This document shows, piece by piece, positions 36,887 to 60,931 of a stretch of 64,000 nt of DNA. The stretch is taken from IMG/VR virus record IMGVR_UViG_3300021471_000001, positions 1 to 64,000 of that record. One strand, given 5' to 3'. Below the pieces are notes generated by a model. The model made no database searches. It was not told where the DNA came from and saw only the letters and a program-made list of their open reading frames with translations. Made by a program: the position numbers and the translations under genes. The stretch is from a virus. Each line of letters starts with the position of its first letter. Positions within the stretch are counted from its first letter, which is position 1.

Positions 36887-37338
36887 ACTTCCTATGTACC
36901 TATAGAAAGCCTTTCCGGGTTGCCTTATGGAAAAATCTGTTACTCCATACACTAAACTCAAGCTTAAACTTTGAAGATGGGCATTTAGGAGGATTTTCTG
37001 ACCACTTAACATTTAAAAACTCTTTGTCAAAAAGCTATTAAGAAATAGTCCCTTCTAAAACGAAGGATCAAATAGATAAAGAATAATAATAACTAAATGG
37101 GAAAAACTGCGTATAAGAGTACACAGTTTTCCCATAATATTCCCTATTCTTTTAAAAAAACGAAAATACTGCCCCTTTGTAGCGTCAAAGAGGCAAGGTA
37201 AAGTGTCAAAATATGTTAATAAATAATTATATACAATTCCGAAAAACAGCTTGCCCCTTTAATCTTTCCTAAAGAGGCAAGTAGACTGTTGAGAATATCC
37301 AAACATCAAGTAAACCCTTCTTTCGACATCAAGAAGGG
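36887..37338 (-). other. Hairpin-rich noncoding spacer
   Basis: The 555-base gap between 36848 and 37404 contains no convincing gene but at least five stem-loops. They lie at 37051-37066 (CCTTC/GAAGG), 37097-37135 (ATGGGAAAAACTG/CAGTTTTCCCAT with one bulge) and 37171-37194 (GCCCCTTTG/CAAAGAGGC). Two more are at 37250-37281 (CTTGCCCCTTTA/TAAAGAGGCAAG) and 37315-37338 (CCCTTCTT/AAGAAGGG, perfect). The stems at 37171 and 37250 are near-copies. The spacer separates early and late gene blocks, so terminators, a regulatory RNA or a packaging site are possible. Confidence 0.55.
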
Positions 37339-37403
37339 CTTAAATATAAATAATTCTTCCAATACCTATACCTAAAACACTCAAAAACCCAAATGTTCCA
37401 TTT

Positions 37404-52025: not shown

Positions 52026-52838
52026 CTATTTAAAAAGTTTATTTTGATTAAAATGAAACTTGAAAAAGTCTGGAAACTCTTGATAGACTTTACCATCAAT
52101 CAGATTACCACCCTTGAAACTTCCATCACTGCATTCTCCTTTTCTACCCCACTGTTTGAAGAAAAATGGTATCTTTAAGCTTTCACAATAGTTTTTTATA
52201 TTAATAACCCAATCTTTTTTCATGGGGCGTGCACATTTGCCACCAGTTTCTCCCCCAACTATCACCCAACTGACGTATTGCAATTTACTGTATAAAGATG
52301 CATTCATTTTTTCTAGCAGAGGTTCAAAAGAAACAAAAATGTTGAATTTAAAAATATTGTAAACTGTGTATACTAAAGCTTTCAGACGATGTAACGCTCG
52401 ATTATTTTCTACAGTCACGCCTATCATAACGTTTCTAGGTAAACCTTCAAAATTGATACCATGACTACGATAGAAGTCCATCTCGATAAAATGCGTGATT
52501 AATTTATCTATACGCTTTGTCAGTATCAAAAAAATATGTTGTTTAGATTTTTCGATAGTAGAAAAGACTTGTGCAATAAAATTATGACTAACTTCTTCAT
52601 GAAACAAGTCTGACATTGAATTTACAAATATTAATTTAGGTTTTTTCCATTTTAACGGCGTATTTAATTCATTTTCATGACAAACAACTTTATTAAAACC
52701 ATATTTATATTTTTTTAATCCCATAGCTTGTAGTCTTTTTGTCATTCTTTCTGCATAGCAATATCTACAACCGTCACTTACTTTAGTACACCCTGTCACA
52801 ATATTCCAAGTTTCCTCTGCCCATTCAATTTTTGTCAT
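52026..52838 (-). CDS. DUF5131 / phage Gp37-Gp68-type protein
   Basis: The 270-residue protein starts MTKIEWAEETWNIVTGCTKV SDGCRYCYAERMTKRL, with Cys17, Cys24 and Cys27 in the family's C-x6-C-x2-C cluster. It then shows PKLIFVNSMSDLFHEEV, IFLILTKRIDKLI, NVMIGVTVENN, FVSFEPLLEKM and WVIVGGETGGKCARPM. This matches the phage family now called DUF5131, thought to be radical-SAM-like because of the three-Cys cluster. Its substrate is unknown. It overlaps the small ORF 52825-52998, which carries its ribosome site. Confidence 0.8.
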   Translation of the reverse strand: MTKIEWAEETWNIVTGCTKVSDGCRYCYAERMTKRLQAMGLKKYKYGFNKVVCHENELNTPLKWKKPKLIFVNSMSDLFHEEVSHNFIAQVFSTIEKSKQHIFLILTKRIDKLITHFIEMDFYRSHGINFEGLPRNVMIGVTVENNRALHRLKALVYTVYNIFKFNIFVSFEPLLEKMNASLYSKLQYVSWVIVGGETGGKCARPMKKDWVINIKNYCESLKIPFFFKQWGRKGECSDGSFKGGNLIDGKVYQEFPDFFKFHFNQNKLFK

Positions 52839-57000: not shown

Positions 57001-57738
57001 TTAATGGAACCACAAACACATTTCATTATCAGGCGTATCTTTTTCAAAAAACTTGTGTTTATATATTTTCGCTTCCATAATCTCCCATACTCTTTTTTCA
57101 CATTTAACAGTGTCTTTGTATTTTATACATTCTTCTTTGTCACAGTTATGATTCCAATATCCATATGCTCTTCTGACCTCTGCACTTATTTTTTCAACTC
57201 CACCTTCCATTTTCTTTTCCCCAAAAAGATGTATATAGTTCAGATTATTTTTGAGCATATATTCTTTAACCTTTTCAGGAGTTCCTTCTGGAAATTCCAA
57301 TCCTTTTTCGTCTTTTTCCATTTTGCAAGTATCCATTCGCAAAAAATCCACTTCTTCATTCAACAACGCTTTTCCAATTTCTTTTTTTTGGGCTTCTTCT
57401 TTTTCTTCTTCTTCTTTTTCTTTTCTTTCTTTTTCTTCTCTTTCTCTTTCTTTTGCTTCATCCCATACTTTGAAATAACTATTATCTTCTATAGTTCCAA
57501 CTAATTTTCCGTTTATATAACATTTTTTACGAAACATTTGAAAACTTTTAATTTCCAAATCCTCTTCAACTTTAATAAAACGGGAGCCCTCTTCTTGAGC
57601 GATTCTTTTTATTTCACTTCCACCTTTACCTATCCATTTCCCTGCAGTGTGTTTTTGTACGTGTAATGTGTTTTTATTTTTATTAAGTAATCCAAAATCT
57701 TCTCTCAAATTTGTAACTACTTTTTTTAAAACTTTCAT
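57001..57738 (-). CDS. KH-domain RNA-binding-like protein, 245 aa
   Basis: Residues 29-58 read KHTAGKWIGKGGSEIKRIAQ EEGSRFIKV, with the GKGG loop of KH domains that bind single-stranded RNA or DNA. A short strand region (KCYINGKLVGTIED) and a charged coiled coil (KEREREEKERKEKEEEEK) follow, then a Cys-containing C-terminal part (HNCDKEECIKYKDTVKCEKR). It starts after TAGGAG and overlaps the end of 57735-58319. KH domains are uncommon in phages, and this one lies just downstream of the structured-RNA island at 58430-60440. Confidence 0.6.
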   Translation of the reverse strand: MKVLKKVVTNLREDFGLLNKNKNTLHVQKHTAGKWIGKGGSEIKRIAQEEGSRFIKVEEDLEIKSFQMFRKKCYINGKLVGTIEDNSYFKVWDEAKEREREEKERKEKEEEEKEEAQKKEIGKALLNEEVDFLRMDTCKMEKDEKGLEFPEGTPEKVKEYMLKNNLNYIHLFGEKKMEGGVEKISAEVRRAYGYWNHNCDKEECIKYKDTVKCEKRVWEIMEAKIYKHKFFEKDTPDNEMCLWFH

Positions 57739-58319
57739 TTTTTTTCTCCTAATTCTATATCCTCTTGGGCTAAGTACTTTTTACAAAGCTTTTCTAACTC
57801 AATAGTTGCATTTACAACGTGTTCCCCTGTGTCATAGTTAACTTCGGCACAATGTATAACCTCACCCATAAGGGCAGATTCAAATTCTGCATTTTCAATA
57901 TCTTCGGGACGTATACTTGAAATGGATTTTGACATAACACGTCTAGCCGCATCGTTTGCTGTAACATAGTAGGGGGGGACATCCCCTAATGATATAAATT
58001 CATCTTTAAGAATACTTTTTAGTAACGGATTTTCAATATATTTTATATAGTTTTTTCTTTCTATAATTGTTTTTGCAAACATAATTGAAGCTTGCCTTAA
58101 TTCACCATAAGTAATAGGATCAGATTTTAAGGTTGATCCCCTGTGAGTTGTGCCAATAAATATCTCCCTATTGTTATTATAGTTCCAGTATGGTGCGGAA
58201 AGGGTCCAACAACCATCATATACATTTATAGATAAAATTTTAACATCTTTTTTGGAATTGCATTTTTGACAATATCTTTCAGTATCGTCAATATTTTTAA
58301 AGCATTTATCATTACACAT
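57735..58319 (-). CDS. Zinc-finger-start protein, 194 aa
   Basis: The start is ATG 58319 (MCNDKCFKNIDDTERYCQKC) after CAGGAG; a longer frame lacks a site. Four Cys in the first 20 residues suggest a zinc finger. The rest has GCWTLSAPYWNYNNNREIFI and helical pieces. It overlaps the KH-domain gene by four bases. It is the first ordinary gene after the GC-rich island. Unknown function. Confidence 0.55.
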   Translation of the reverse strand: MCNDKCFKNIDDTERYCQKCNSKKDVKILSINVYDGCWTLSAPYWNYNNNREIFIGTTHRGSTLKSDPITYGELRQASIMFAKTIIERKNYIKYIENPLLKSILKDEFISLGDVPPYYVTANDAARRVMSKSISSIRPEDIENAEFESALMGEVIHCAEVNYDTGEHVVNATIELEKLCKKYLAQEDIELGEKK

Positions 58320-58436: not shown

Positions 58437-58526
58437 GCCCCCTTTCGGGGGCGTACGTACGTATTTTGGGTTGTCCTACCTTCATTCAACCCCGTACAGG
58501 TAGGATAATGCGGGGTTTAACGAAGG
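58437..58526 (-). other. Structured element A of the repeated island
   Basis: The main stem is CCTTCATTCAACCCCG (58479-58494) with CGGGGTTTAACGAAGG (58511-58526), with two non-Watson-Crick positions. The loop contains AGGTAGGA (58498-58505), and its complement TCCTACC stands at 58474-58480, so a pseudoknot is possible. A perfect GCCCCC/GGGGGC hairpin (58437-58452) with a GAAA tetraloop on the transcript lies downstream. Confidence 0.65.
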
Positions 58527-58537
58527 AAAAGGTAAGT

Positions 58538-58930
58538 CTATTCTGGATTTGGTATTTCTGTTAAAATAGCCGGGACATGTGCTGTAAGACAATCTTCATA
58601 AGCAACTTGTTCCCCTTCTTCTTCATATGTATCATAAAAATACTGGTAGGCCGTAAGGCTGCCAGTATATTCCCCGTCCCTGTGTAGGTTTGGGGAAAGT
58701 AATATGTGATCAACTTCAGGTTCATCTGGATCAGGCTCGGGGGACGGCTCCCCGGCCTCCTTAGCCCAGGCGAGCTTTTCAAATAAGGGAAGGATGTCCT
58801 CTATCTTGACAATGAAAAGTGTAATTATTGTTTTTTTAACTATATATTTATCTGTAAAATAAATAAATTTTTCTCCCCTCTCCCAAAGGTCTTTTAGAAA
58901 AGGGAGTCCATATTTTCTTGTTATAATCAT
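58538..58930 (-). CDS. Island ORF 1, unknown protein of 130 aa
   Basis: The ORF starts after GGAGGGTAAC. The N-terminal 50 residues look like an ordinary alpha/beta start (MIITRKYGLPFLKDLWERGE KFIYFTDKYIVKK). The second part is rich in Pro, Glu and Asp (EPSPEPDPDEPE) and is encoded by GC-richer DNA with hairpins at 58640-58668 (ATACTGG/CCAGTAT) and 58738-58754 (CGGGG/CCCCG). Not recognised; composition differs from the surrounding genome. Confidence 0.55.
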   Translation of the reverse strand: MIITRKYGLPFLKDLWERGEKFIYFTDKYIVKKTIITLFIVKIEDILPLFEKLAWAKEAGEPSPEPDPDEPEVDHILLSPNLHRDGEYTGSLTAYQYFYDTYEEEGEQVAYEDCLTAHVPAILTEIPNPE

Positions 58931-58933
58931 GTT

Positions 58934-59079
58934 ACCCTCCTATAGGGTTTTCGGACTTAACTATGACCACAAAGGCGTCCGTAAACCTTCGTAGAAACTA
59001 CCTTACGGTAGGTTAATCCCTCATAGGGACGATAGAAGCTTGCTACACCCCGCATAGGTAGGAATGCGGTGTGCAGCAA
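58934..59079 (-). other. Structured element B of the repeated island
   Basis: The main stem is TTGCTACACCCCGCAT (59040-59055) with ATGCGGTGTGCAGCAA (59064-59079) around AGGTAGGA exactly. Next is the constant ATCCCTCATAGGGACGAT (59016-59033), then CTACC/GGTAG (58998-59011). Finally ACCCT/AGGGT (58934-58948) encloses the ribosome site of 58538-58930. Stem bases differ from elements A, C and D while pairing is kept. Confidence 0.7.
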
Positions 59080-59102
59080 AGGGATTGGCTATTTTCACCA
59101 CT

Positions 59103-59615
59103 TTACATACTCGAAACATACTCGAATTCCGATTGGAATTCGAGTGTTTTTATAATTCTATCGCAGTACCAACGAATTTCTTTTTTTTCTTTTAAATCTT
59201 TTAAAATTTCTACGATTTTTTTTGCTTGTCGAGGGGAGAGATCGTGGTCGTGGTGGGTGTAATCTTTCTTAATGTAGGCGCTAGCTATGTAATTTGGGTC
59301 GAAGGAGCCATCTTCTCCCAATCGTAGTACTACTACTATATCGGTGGGGGGTGTGATGTGGGGGTGTTTTTCGTCTATAAATCTGTGTTCAGATGGGAGG
59401 GTTCCCCCTTCTCCATCTGGCGAGGGACCTGACCAGCTTTGGTCAAACTCGCTGGCAACGGTAAGCGGGGAGGGGGAGTTGGGTGTGTAAACAAAAGAAT
59501 AAGAAAAATTAATTCTGCCTTGCCCCTGATAGGCTGAATAATCTCTAACATGTACAGAAACTACTATTAGCCCCCCTTTTTTAATAAAGGTGGAAAATAG
59601 ATTTTTATTTTTCAT
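59103..59615 (-). CDS. Island ORF 2, unknown protein of 170 aa
   Basis: It starts after AGGAGGGTAAT. The protein has a strand-rich N-terminus (LIVVSVHVRDYSAYQGQGRI NFSYSF), a Pro/Ser/Gly-rich middle (PNSPSPLTVASEFDQSWSGP) and a helical C-terminus (ARQAKKIVEIL-like LSPRQAKKIVEILKDLKEKK). The middle is encoded around a nested hairpin at 59420-59452 (GCGAG/CTCGC enclosing TGACC/GGTCA). Not recognised. Confidence 0.55.
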   Translation of the reverse strand: MKNKNLFSTFIKKGGLIVVSVHVRDYSAYQGQGRINFSYSFVYTPNSPSPLTVASEFDQSWSGPSPDGEGGTLPSEHRFIDEKHPHITPPTDIVVVLRLGEDGSFDPNYIASAYIKKDYTHHDHDLSPRQAKKIVEILKDLKEKKEIRWYCDRIIKTLEFQSEFEYVSSM

Positions 59616-59618
59616 ATT

Positions 59619-59760
59619 ACCCTCCTAGGGTTTTCACCTTTGTTTACGACTACTCGGGCAGGTGTAAACCCAAGCAGAAGCCCTCATACGAAGGGTTTAT
59701 CCCTCATAGGGACGATGTAAAACCCCTTTCCGCTTAGGTAGGACAGCGGGAAGAGGTTTT
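59619..59760 (-). other. Structured element C of the repeated island
   Basis: The main stem is AAAACCCCTTTCCGCT (59719-59734) with AGCGGGAAGAGGTTTT (59745-59760), loop with AGGTAGGA. The constant ATCCCTCATAGGGACGAT is at 59699-59716. ACCCT/AGGGT (59619-59631) holds the ribosome site of 59103-59615. Its core of about 65 bases is nearly identical to element D, with one difference seen. Confidence 0.7.
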
Positions 59761-59766
59761 GGGTGA

Positions 59767-59964
59767 CTAATAAACGAGGGCGTCTTTCTTTTCCGAATAG
59801 ACGCACTCACAGGTTGGAATTTGGTGGTATGCAGTGTGGCTTTCGCCAGCATCTGCATACCACCAGTCAATTATAATGTCCTGGTCGTCTACGACAGGGT
59901 AGACGCCTAGGATAGGAAAATTTATGCTGGAAAGGGGCTTCCCCAAAAATTTTTCTAATTTCAT
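59767..59964 (-). CDS. Island ORF 3, unknown protein of 65 aa
   Basis: It starts after AAAGAGGTATAAGAT, a leader shared with island ORF 4. The protein contains PILGVYPVVDDQDIIIDWWY ADAGESHTAYHQ. Its coding DNA holds a perfect 12-bp inverted repeat (GGTGGTATGCAG 59823-59834; CTGCATACCACC 59853-59864) enclosing a smaller TGGC/GCCA hairpin. Not recognised. Confidence 0.5.
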   Translation of the reverse strand: MKLEKFLGKPLSSINFPILGVYPVVDDQDIIIDWWYADAGESHTAYHQIPTCECVYSEKKDALVY

Positions 59965-59998
59965 ATCTTATACCTCTTTTTTTTTAATTTTTTTGGTA

Positions 59999-60077
59999 GG
60001 GGCAAAGAGCCCCAAATCCCTCATAGGGACGATGTAAAACCCCTTTCCGCTTAGGTAGGATAGCGGGAAGAGGTTTT
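59999..60077 (-). other. Structured element D of the repeated island
   Basis: The main stem is AAAACCCCTTTCCGCT (60036-60051) with AGCGGGAAGAGGTTTT (60062-60077), loop with AGGTAGGA. The constant ATCCCTCATAGGGACGAT is at 60016-60033. A GGGGC/GCCCC hairpin (59999-60013) takes the place of the variable third stem. It precedes island ORF 3. Confidence 0.7.
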
Positions 60078-60092
60078 GGGCGGTATGAAAGG

Positions 60093-60335
60093 CTATATGA
60101 TTATGTCCTCTGCAAAACTGTGGGCTTTATTTAGCCAGTAATATTTTTTGTGACTTCGATTGGAAGCCCAAAAATGGTATTGATTAAACAGTTGTTGGAG
60201 TTGGTCTAGTTTATTTTTTAATTCTAATTCTTCTGGAGGCAGTTCTGGTGGCGGGGATGATGTAGCGGCAATTTTGTCTCGACCTACCCATAGGGTAGTT
60301 TGAATATATTTTTCTTTATTTTCAATCTTTTTCAT
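60093..60335 (-). CDS. Island ORF 4, unknown protein of 80 aa
   Basis: It shares its ribosome-site leader (AAAGAGGTATAAGAT) with island ORF 3. The protein has a Lys-rich start, a Pro-rich middle (SSPPPELPPEELEL) and a helical end (LDQLQQLFNQYHFWASNRSH). It is the first island ORF after the terminator at 60393-60440. Not recognised. Confidence 0.5.
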   Translation of the reverse strand: MKKIENKEKYIQTTLWVGRDKIAATSSPPPELPPEELELKNKLDQLQQLFNQYHFWASNRSHKKYYWLNKAHSFAEDIII

Positions 60336-60367
60336 ATCTTATACCTCTTTTTTTTTAAATATTTTGT

Positions 60368-60440
60368 GGGGACAAAGCCCCAAAGGATTGGAAACAAAAA
60401 AAACCCAGTCACCCGTTTCTTCTGTTTCGGTGCTGGGGTT
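60368..60440 (-). terminator. Terminator at the upstream border of the island
   Basis: On the minus strand an imperfect stem built from AACCCCAG/CTGGGTT with inner ACCG/CGGGT is followed directly by eight T residues (60393-60440), a good rho-independent terminator. A small GGGG/CCCC hairpin (60368-60381) follows, like the one in element D. It would stop transcripts coming from the fibre and holin genes, so the island probably has its own transcription start. Confidence 0.7.
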
Positions 60441-60534
60441 TGGGGAAGAATTTTTTTTGTAATTTTTTTCTATCGTTTCCATGCCATATAATATTGCAAT
60501 ATATATACCACCACGCCATATTTTTTACCTATTT

Positions 60535-60806
60535 TTTACACAAATCGTACAAACAACATAAACATAACAATTTACATAAACACAAAAAATTAAAAAGCAA
60601 AATGCAAGTATGCCAACTTTACAAAAATTTGTCTAAATATTTTACATAATTCAACCACATTTTTTACACAATTTTAATCGAAATGCATTCATATATCGTT
60701 CCAAATAGCAAAAGCACCGTGTCTAAAATCTTTACATATACACAAAAAATATGTCTATTATTTTTACATAAAAATGCACAGCAAATTGTCGTTATTATCT
60801 TTTACA
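60535..60806 (+). repeat. AT-rich spacer with eight TTTACA direct repeats
   Basis: The gap between the terminator and gene 60932-61135 has no convincing gene. TTTACA occurs at 60535, 60571, 60618, 60651, 60663, 60731, 60773 and 60801, all in the same direction and often continuing as TTTACACA or TTTACATA. The right half of the iterons at 50688-51055 is also TTTACACAAGT. The repeats may bind the initiator or another protein. Confidence 0.5.
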
Positions 60807-60852
60807 CATTTTATAGAAGAATCTCCAAAATGCAATGTAGAAAAGGATAAGC

Positions 60853-60898
60853 AAAGTGTAAGTAATAGATACATATATGTAATCACCACTTACACTTT
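60853..60898 (-). other. Hairpin after the last fibre-operon gene
   Basis: AAAGTGTAAGT (60853-60863) pairs perfectly with ACTTACACTTT (60888-60898). On the minus strand it follows the stop of 60932-61135 by about 30 bases. There is no T-tract, so it may be a processing or stabilising stem. Confidence 0.45.
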
Positions 60899-60931
60899 TG
60901 AAAAGAGTAGGAGTAGTATTATGTTTTAAAA

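Follow-up and report, generated by a model that had tools for sequence, protein, structure and literature searches.

Intergenic stem-loops joined to pieces of a type I-B CRISPR repeat in a viral gene island: candidate Racr-like decoys for host Cas6

Four structured elements, here called A to D, lie in the gaps of a small gene island in virus record IMGVR_UViG_3300021471_000001, and their arrangement raises the question of what an uncultured phage gains from repeating such a structure beside each gene of one operon. The window analysed, 64,000 nucleotides long, is nearly all of this 64,608-base record. An earlier note had placed the four elements around the island ORFs from the letters of the sequence; all are present where it put them. 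We read them as RNA on the minus strand, since their GNRA loops (GAAA in A, GUAA in B) occur on that strand only and all genes relevant to the island are encoded there.

Gene setting of the elements

The surroundings of the elements, in the direction of transcription, are as follows.

60420..60930 (~500 bp), no strand: AT-rich noncoding stretch that contains short repeats and precedes the island operon
60093..60335, minus strand: island ORF of 80 aa, upstream of element D; no family
59767..59964, minus strand: island ORF of 65 aa, between D and C; no family
59103..59615, minus strand: island ORF of 170 aa, between C and B; without relatives in our searches
58538..58930, minus strand: island ORF of 130 aa, between B and A; without relatives in our searches
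57735..58319, minus strand: ORF of 194 aa after A; of two possible starts, 58319 and 58400, the former has the better ribosome-binding site
57001..57738, minus strand: KH-domain protein of 245 aa (PF00013), second gene past element A

The island is the first gene cluster past the 500-bp noncoding stretch, itself likely a promoter or origin region, and continues towards the replication genes: past the KH gene come more early and replication genes, including an O-like initiator, a DnaC-like loader and a 253-aa protein weakly related to proteins of other phages, among them one with a Gam-like annotation. The first cluster heading to the replication genes is a usual site of early anti-defence genes. 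The G+C content of the island is 39-46%, against 27-35% for its neighbours. Each gap between consecutive island ORFs holds one element, and one more follows the last ORF, giving the transcription order D, C, B, A; P1, the main stem-loop, begins 15, 6, 22 and 11 nt past the respective stop codons, 50-160 nt separate each element from the next start codon, and the elements are spaced 300-700 bp apart with the ORFs in between. Searches of IMG/VR with three ORFs of the island region, the terminase and an adjoining 385-aa protein found no relatives, and as the island proteins have no detectable relatives, a tie to known acr genes cannot be made.

Several other observations concern the same DNA. Within the AT-rich stretch (60516-60900) the motifs TTTTTTACAC, TTTACATAAACACAAAAAAT and AAAAATTTGTCTA are repeated and may form a cluster of early promoters or an origin of replication ahead of the island. 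The four island ORFs have two duplicated leader/RBS types, AAAAAAAAAGAGGTATAAGATATG and CCCTA..AGGAGGGTAA.ATG (59959-59995 and 60330-60366; 58927-58942 and 59612-59627), pointing to a duplication of gene-plus-element units. The 65-aa ORF contains a perfect 13-bp inverted repeat (TGGTGGTATGCAG / CTGCATACCACCA, 59822-59865), the 3' end of the 170-aa ORF a strong terminator-like hairpin on the plus strand, antisense to the genes (59118-59147), and the 80-aa ORF a CTACCCATAGGGTAG hairpin followed by TTTGAA (~60288-60304), faintly CRISPR-repeat-like on the plus strand (score 23). Elsewhere in the window, a tandem pair of intergenic hairpins lies on the minus strand at 37250-37342 (AAGCCCTTCTTGATGTCGAAAGAAGGGTTT, TTGCCTCTTTAGGAAAGATTAAAGGGGCAA), and 52026-52838 (minus strand) encodes a well conserved phage protein, phrog_2045, annotated as Gp37/Gp68 family in a mycobacteriophage and 37% identical to actinobacteriophage proteins.

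Fold and covariation of the main stem-loop

Each element is divided below into the main stem-loop P1, a segment P2 and a small hairpin P3.

58479..58526, minus strand: A, P1, 16-position stem with loop UAUCCUACCU
58437..58452, minus strand: A, P3, GCCCCC-GAAA-GGGGGC hairpin
59040..59079, minus strand: B, P1, stem-loop with loop UCCUACCU
59015..59034, minus strand: B, P2, identical over 20 nt to a 30-nt WOR-3 CRISPR repeat (its nt 6-25), without handle
58998..59011, minus strand: B, P3, CUACC-GUAA-GGUAG hairpin, weakly repeat-like
59719..59760, minus strand: C, P1, stem-loop with loop UCCUACCU
59699..59721, minus strand: C, P2, identical to the WOR-3 repeat over 18 nt (59699-59716) and matching a Caloramator repeat (its nt 2-23) at 21/22 (59700-59721)
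59681..59695, minus strand: C, P3, CCCUUCGUAUGAGGG hairpin, weakly repeat-like, a pairing competitor of P2
60036..60077, minus strand: D, P1, stem-loop with loop UCCUACCU
60015..60038, minus strand: D, P2, identical to the WOR-3 repeat over 19 nt (60015-60033) and matching the Caloramator repeat (its nt 2-23) at 21/22 (60017-60038)
59999..60013, minus strand: D, P3, GGGGC...GCCCC hairpin

The 16-bp stem around a constant loop, first described by the earlier note, was recovered with 16 positions in all four elements, the loop UCCUACCU and one mismatch whose place moves: A has 8 bp, a 1x1 mismatch and 7 bp (plus 2 bp), B has 9, 1x1 and 6, and C/D have 10, 1x1 and 5. The folding z-scores are -4.2 for A and B, -5.1 for C and -4.3 for D, and 0 of 200 shuffles fold as well. 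That the stems differ and yet stay paired, as had been claimed, is borne out by double-sided changes in 11 of 19 stem pairs, a number reached by 1 of 500 shuffles; 89.9% of cells are paired, compared with 68.3% in shuffles, and the covariation score of 0.684, compared with 0.271 in shuffles, was reached by none of 500 shuffles and was lost when the partner was slid by 1-3 columns. C and D are recent duplicates, 98% identical over 65 nt, so that the covariation rests on about three independent stems. Folding and pair counting thus both support the proposal of a selected single-strand structure. Between B and D, each stem arm is identical at 3 of 16 positions, while the loop (8/8) and P2 are fully so, which argues that loop and P2 are read as sequence and the stem as structure only. 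In the window, AGGTAGGA occurs 7 times where 1.9 are expected.

The possible pseudoknot in A is not supported. What A shows is complementarity: an 8-nt complement of the loop lies at 58474-58481 and overlaps the final 3 nt of the 3' arm (arm end 58479), and since no linker is left to span the 16-bp stem, an intramolecular pseudoknot is sterically implausible; the complement could pair in trans. No riboswitch or ribozyme had been recognised in the elements, and Rfam likewise gave no match at gathering thresholds in the window and none relevant at E values up to 5.

A loop-binding protein would be expected to leave just such a trace, a loop that stays constant while the stem varies, and the KH gene stands two genes past A. 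In the PDB, the product of this gene, whose tail is charged and coiled-coil-like, is closest, though weakly, to Nova-1 and hnRNP K in their KH domains (E 0.007-0.01); these two bind pyrimidine-rich single-stranded RNA, and the phage protein is a plausible candidate for a reader of the UCCUACCU loops. The 16-bp imperfect stems also lie right behind stop codons and in this resemble phage RNase III sites. The elements might then be processing or stabiliser elements, acted on by a general host RNase (RNase III-like) or by the KH protein, with any CRISPR likeness of P2 secondary or coincidental. We regard this explanation as improbable, since it leaves unexplained why B and C/D keep an exact 18-20 nt piece of a repeat when its surroundings have diverged.

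Likeness of the elements to type I-B CRISPR repeats

The 18-base segment with a small hairpin that the earlier note saw in B, C and D is exact in all three, and its 16-base core would be expected 0.09 times by chance at up to 3 mismatches. It is a real shared motif, but not a new one: it is a piece of a CRISPR-DR2 / type I-B repeat. When ATCGTCCCTATGAGGGA was searched in ~85,000 bacterial and archaeal species genomes, it turned up in host arrays with a spacing of 65-70 bp: a WOR-3 genome has stretches of 9-22 copies each, Caloramator fervidus has 11 copies, and the remaining matches were all single. Chance gives scattered single matches in so large a collection, but not tandem arrays. The array repeats are GTTTTTATCGTCCCTATGAGGGATTGAAAC (candidate division WOR-3) and GTTTATATCGTCCCTATGAGGGAGGGAAAC (Caloramator fervidus). 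The contiguous match to the WOR-3 repeat is 20 nt in B (nt 6-25), 19 nt in D (nt 7-25) and 18 nt in C (nt 7-24), P2 of C and D matches nt 2-23 of the Caloramator repeat at 21/22, and the probability that a random 17-mer matches any of 17,823 known CRISPR repeats (PMC10651486) is about 3e-5. Judged from these alignments, the assignment of P2 to a CRISPR repeat is firm. With an assumed 8-nt 5' handle, Cas6 would cut after nt 22, GAGGG/AUUGAAAC; the P2 match spans the hairpin and this expected site and ends 2-3 nt into the 5' handle, whose last 5-6 nt are replaced by sequence that differs among B, C and D. Element A has no CRISPR-like P2.

The likeness may extend to P1. When ten real repeats of this type were aligned locally along the whole window, the best four sites were B (42), D (41), C (40) and A (32), all on the minus strand, with the next best at 28; eight of the ten repeats had been collected for sharing CCTACCT with the loop, so that the rank of A is partly non-independent, a point addressed by an arm-shuffle control. 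With the arms shuffled and the loop fixed, the score was reached in 1 of 300 shuffles for A, 33 for B, 85 for C and 96 for D, and is significant in A only. The P1 of A is thus likely to be repeat-like, while for B-D the likeness is only suggestive. In A, loop and 3' arm (TTATCCTACCTGTACGGGGTTGAA, 58485-58508) are 20/24 identical to a clostridial I-B repeat, and the 5' arm of P1 pairs with the repeat's 3' half. Rfam CRISPR-DR2 (RF01315) aligns to P2 of B in the right orientation (18.7 bits, gathering 37), and its consensus contains AUAGGUAgG, the loop on the opposite strand. Of 391 genomes sampled from the class of Caloramator, 12 have repeats with CCTACCTATNAGGNATTGAAAC.

Two successive repeat-like units in B-D, and weak third copies (P3) in B and C (3/200 and 5/200), might suggest a captured CRISPR array or mini-array remnants, either neutral or used for inter-phage targeting. 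We consider this largely refuted and very improbable: P1 and P2 are separated by no spacer, handle and array spacing are both missing, and neutral decay would not preserve an exact P2 together with a paired P1.

Seven genomes with repeats of this type were tested: Cas6 scored above the curated cut-off in every one, and the I-B large subunit Cas8b/TM1802 was present in five, in four on the same contig as the array. Among about 1,000 spacers taken from such arrays none matched the window, the longest exact stretch being 16 nt. A host assignment from the terminase was not decisive, with weak matches to the WOR-3 phylum (32%, E 9e-47) and Clostridia (E 9e-34), and a search for both repeat types in one genome did not succeed, the TAAGG-type being absent from the two genomes checked. 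Separately, the WOR-3 contig JANXBH010000009 (2542-2558 of the stretch examined) carries a single full CRISPR repeat without neighbours and away from arrays, possibly a solitary repeat in a mobile element.

Further homologues, whose absence the earlier note took as grounds for refuting its reading, were not found for the composite element in IMG/VR, INPHARED, 291 clostridial or 147 WOR-3-phylum genomes, yet its repeat piece is clearly related to repeats of host arrays. A covariance model scored strongly in the window only for A-D and their reverse strands, and in the 291 and 147 genomes gave single matches of 24-25 bits that we take as chance. In IMG/VR, the 17-nt core had one chance match, inside a helicase-like gene; the matches listed for CCGC-TCCTACCT-CGG were unrelated, for example a CCGCCAGTCCTACCTGGCGG hairpin that recurs ahead of a T-run; and 14 matches to the loop plus CCCTATGAGG included none with the structure of the element, several being one recurring sequence. 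In INPHARED, island DNA had nothing beyond chance matches.

Possible functions and comparison with known systems

RNA anti-CRISPRs (Racrs) derive from solitary repeat units of phages (Camara-Wilpert et al. 2023, PMC10651486). We suggest, as the best explanation and a somewhat probable one, that A-D are multi-copy Racr-like decoys for host Cas6b: CRISPR-repeat mimics between the genes of the first (early) operon of the phage, presumably co-transcribed with them. P2 of B, C and D would supply the part of a type I-B repeat that Cas6 recognises, the hairpin and the predicted cleavage site, and host Cas6b would bind and probably cut it; bound RNA without a usable handle would recruit neither Cas5 nor Cas8b, no working Cascade would form and Cas6 would be sequestered. 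P1 would be a second, fused unit, making the elements composite modules with an added stem-loop that in all four could act as a stable cap, shielding the decoy and halting growth of the Cas7 filament; in A it may also lock the 3' half of the repeat into a helix, comparable to Cas13 leader-repeat hairpins.

The retention of the Cas6 part and the loss of the handle are a good fit to a decoy, and the early-operon site, as a usual anti-defence position, also counts in its favour, as does the presence of Cas6 in 7/7 and Cas8b in 5/7 genomes with this repeat type. In a crRNA, Cas5 reads the 5' end and Cas6 the 3' end (PMC13199841); for RacrIF1, inhibition remained substantial when the 8-nt handle was altered and came mainly from the product upstream of the Cas6 site (PMC10651486). 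Against the decoy we count that the composite has no homologues, that A has no P2, that the repeat likeness of P1 is significant in A only, that P2 lies at 36-40 bits, just below the 41.1-bit cut-off for solitary repeats, that ~1,000 spacers do not match the window, and that the long P1 stem has no Racr counterpart known to us. Known Racrs are described as solitary repeats.

The placement of the elements also allows a serious rival, which we nevertheless judge unlikely, in which Cas6 acts on P2 in a polycistronic early mRNA and the elements are sensors or processing sites. The message could be split into single-gene messages, with P1 guarding the upstream 3' end, or downstream translation could be altered when CRISPR-Cas is present. 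Every element stands 6-22 nt past one stop and 50-160 nt ahead of the next start, no minus-strand terminator with a strong U-tract lies in between, copy number tracks gene number, and C is able to refold between P2 and P3, all of which agree with regulation or processing. On the other hand, this rival has no demonstrated switch structure masking ribosome-binding sites, it does not account for an element A without P2, and a phage that needs a host defence nuclease for its mRNA would be at a disadvantage in CRISPR-minus hosts. A related idea, that host Cas6 serves as a signal whose action at the intercistronic P1-P2 units switches or splits an early anti-defence operon only in CRISPR-carrying hosts, would make the elements a defence-sensing viral RNA; we think this rather doubtful.

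The decoy reading bears on how RNA anti-CRISPRs are found, as their recent discovery came via nearly full-length solitary repeats. The SRUFinder rules ask for identity of at least 90%, coverage of at least 90%, at least 41.1 bits and nothing repeat-like within 100 bp (PMC10651486). Here the coverage is 60-73%, the best score 40.1 bits, and the repeat-like P1/P3 adjoin; the pieces do match repeats of real arrays (18-20 nt exact to one, 21/22 to a second), all lie between ORFs, the window contains no array, and the neighbouring proteins scanned include no cas. Since the rules on coverage, bit score and solitariness are failed, we call the elements a Racr-like variant and not a Racr member. These partial repeats, below the cut-off and beside other repeat-like hairpins, are nonetheless exact in several copies within one operon. 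If they work, present screens overlook a class of Racr; Racr candidates would be added for type I-B, which has been described as the commonest CRISPR subtype (PMC13199841), and the four small island proteins would be good candidates for anti-CRISPR or anti-defence proteins of new kinds.

In comparison with other repeat-derived RNAs, the elements resemble CRISPR-DR2 (RF01315) and type I-B repeats in that P2 of B aligns to the family and P1 of A to real repeats, but the family score is below gathering (18.7 vs 37), they lie outside any array and the 3' handle is replaced. As in the Cas13 leader-repeat hairpins, the upstream 5' arm of A pairs with the repeat and would block processing; those hairpins, however, belong to host type VI arrays and protect immunity (PMC13187072), whereas the locus here is a phage one and of the I-B kind. 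Viral CRISPR mini-arrays share with A-D viral repeats that match host repeats, but A-D have no spacer or second full repeat, and P1 and P2 abut. With the Racrs the parallels are these: A-D are phage-encoded and intergenic, B-D hold the repeat hairpin and Cas6 site of a known CRISPR type, the handle is not needed, and an operon can be shared with other genes. Unlike a Racr, the island carries four copies, one between each neighbouring gene pair, and their type I-B repeats are partial, under the published cut-off and fused to a covarying 16-bp stem-loop.
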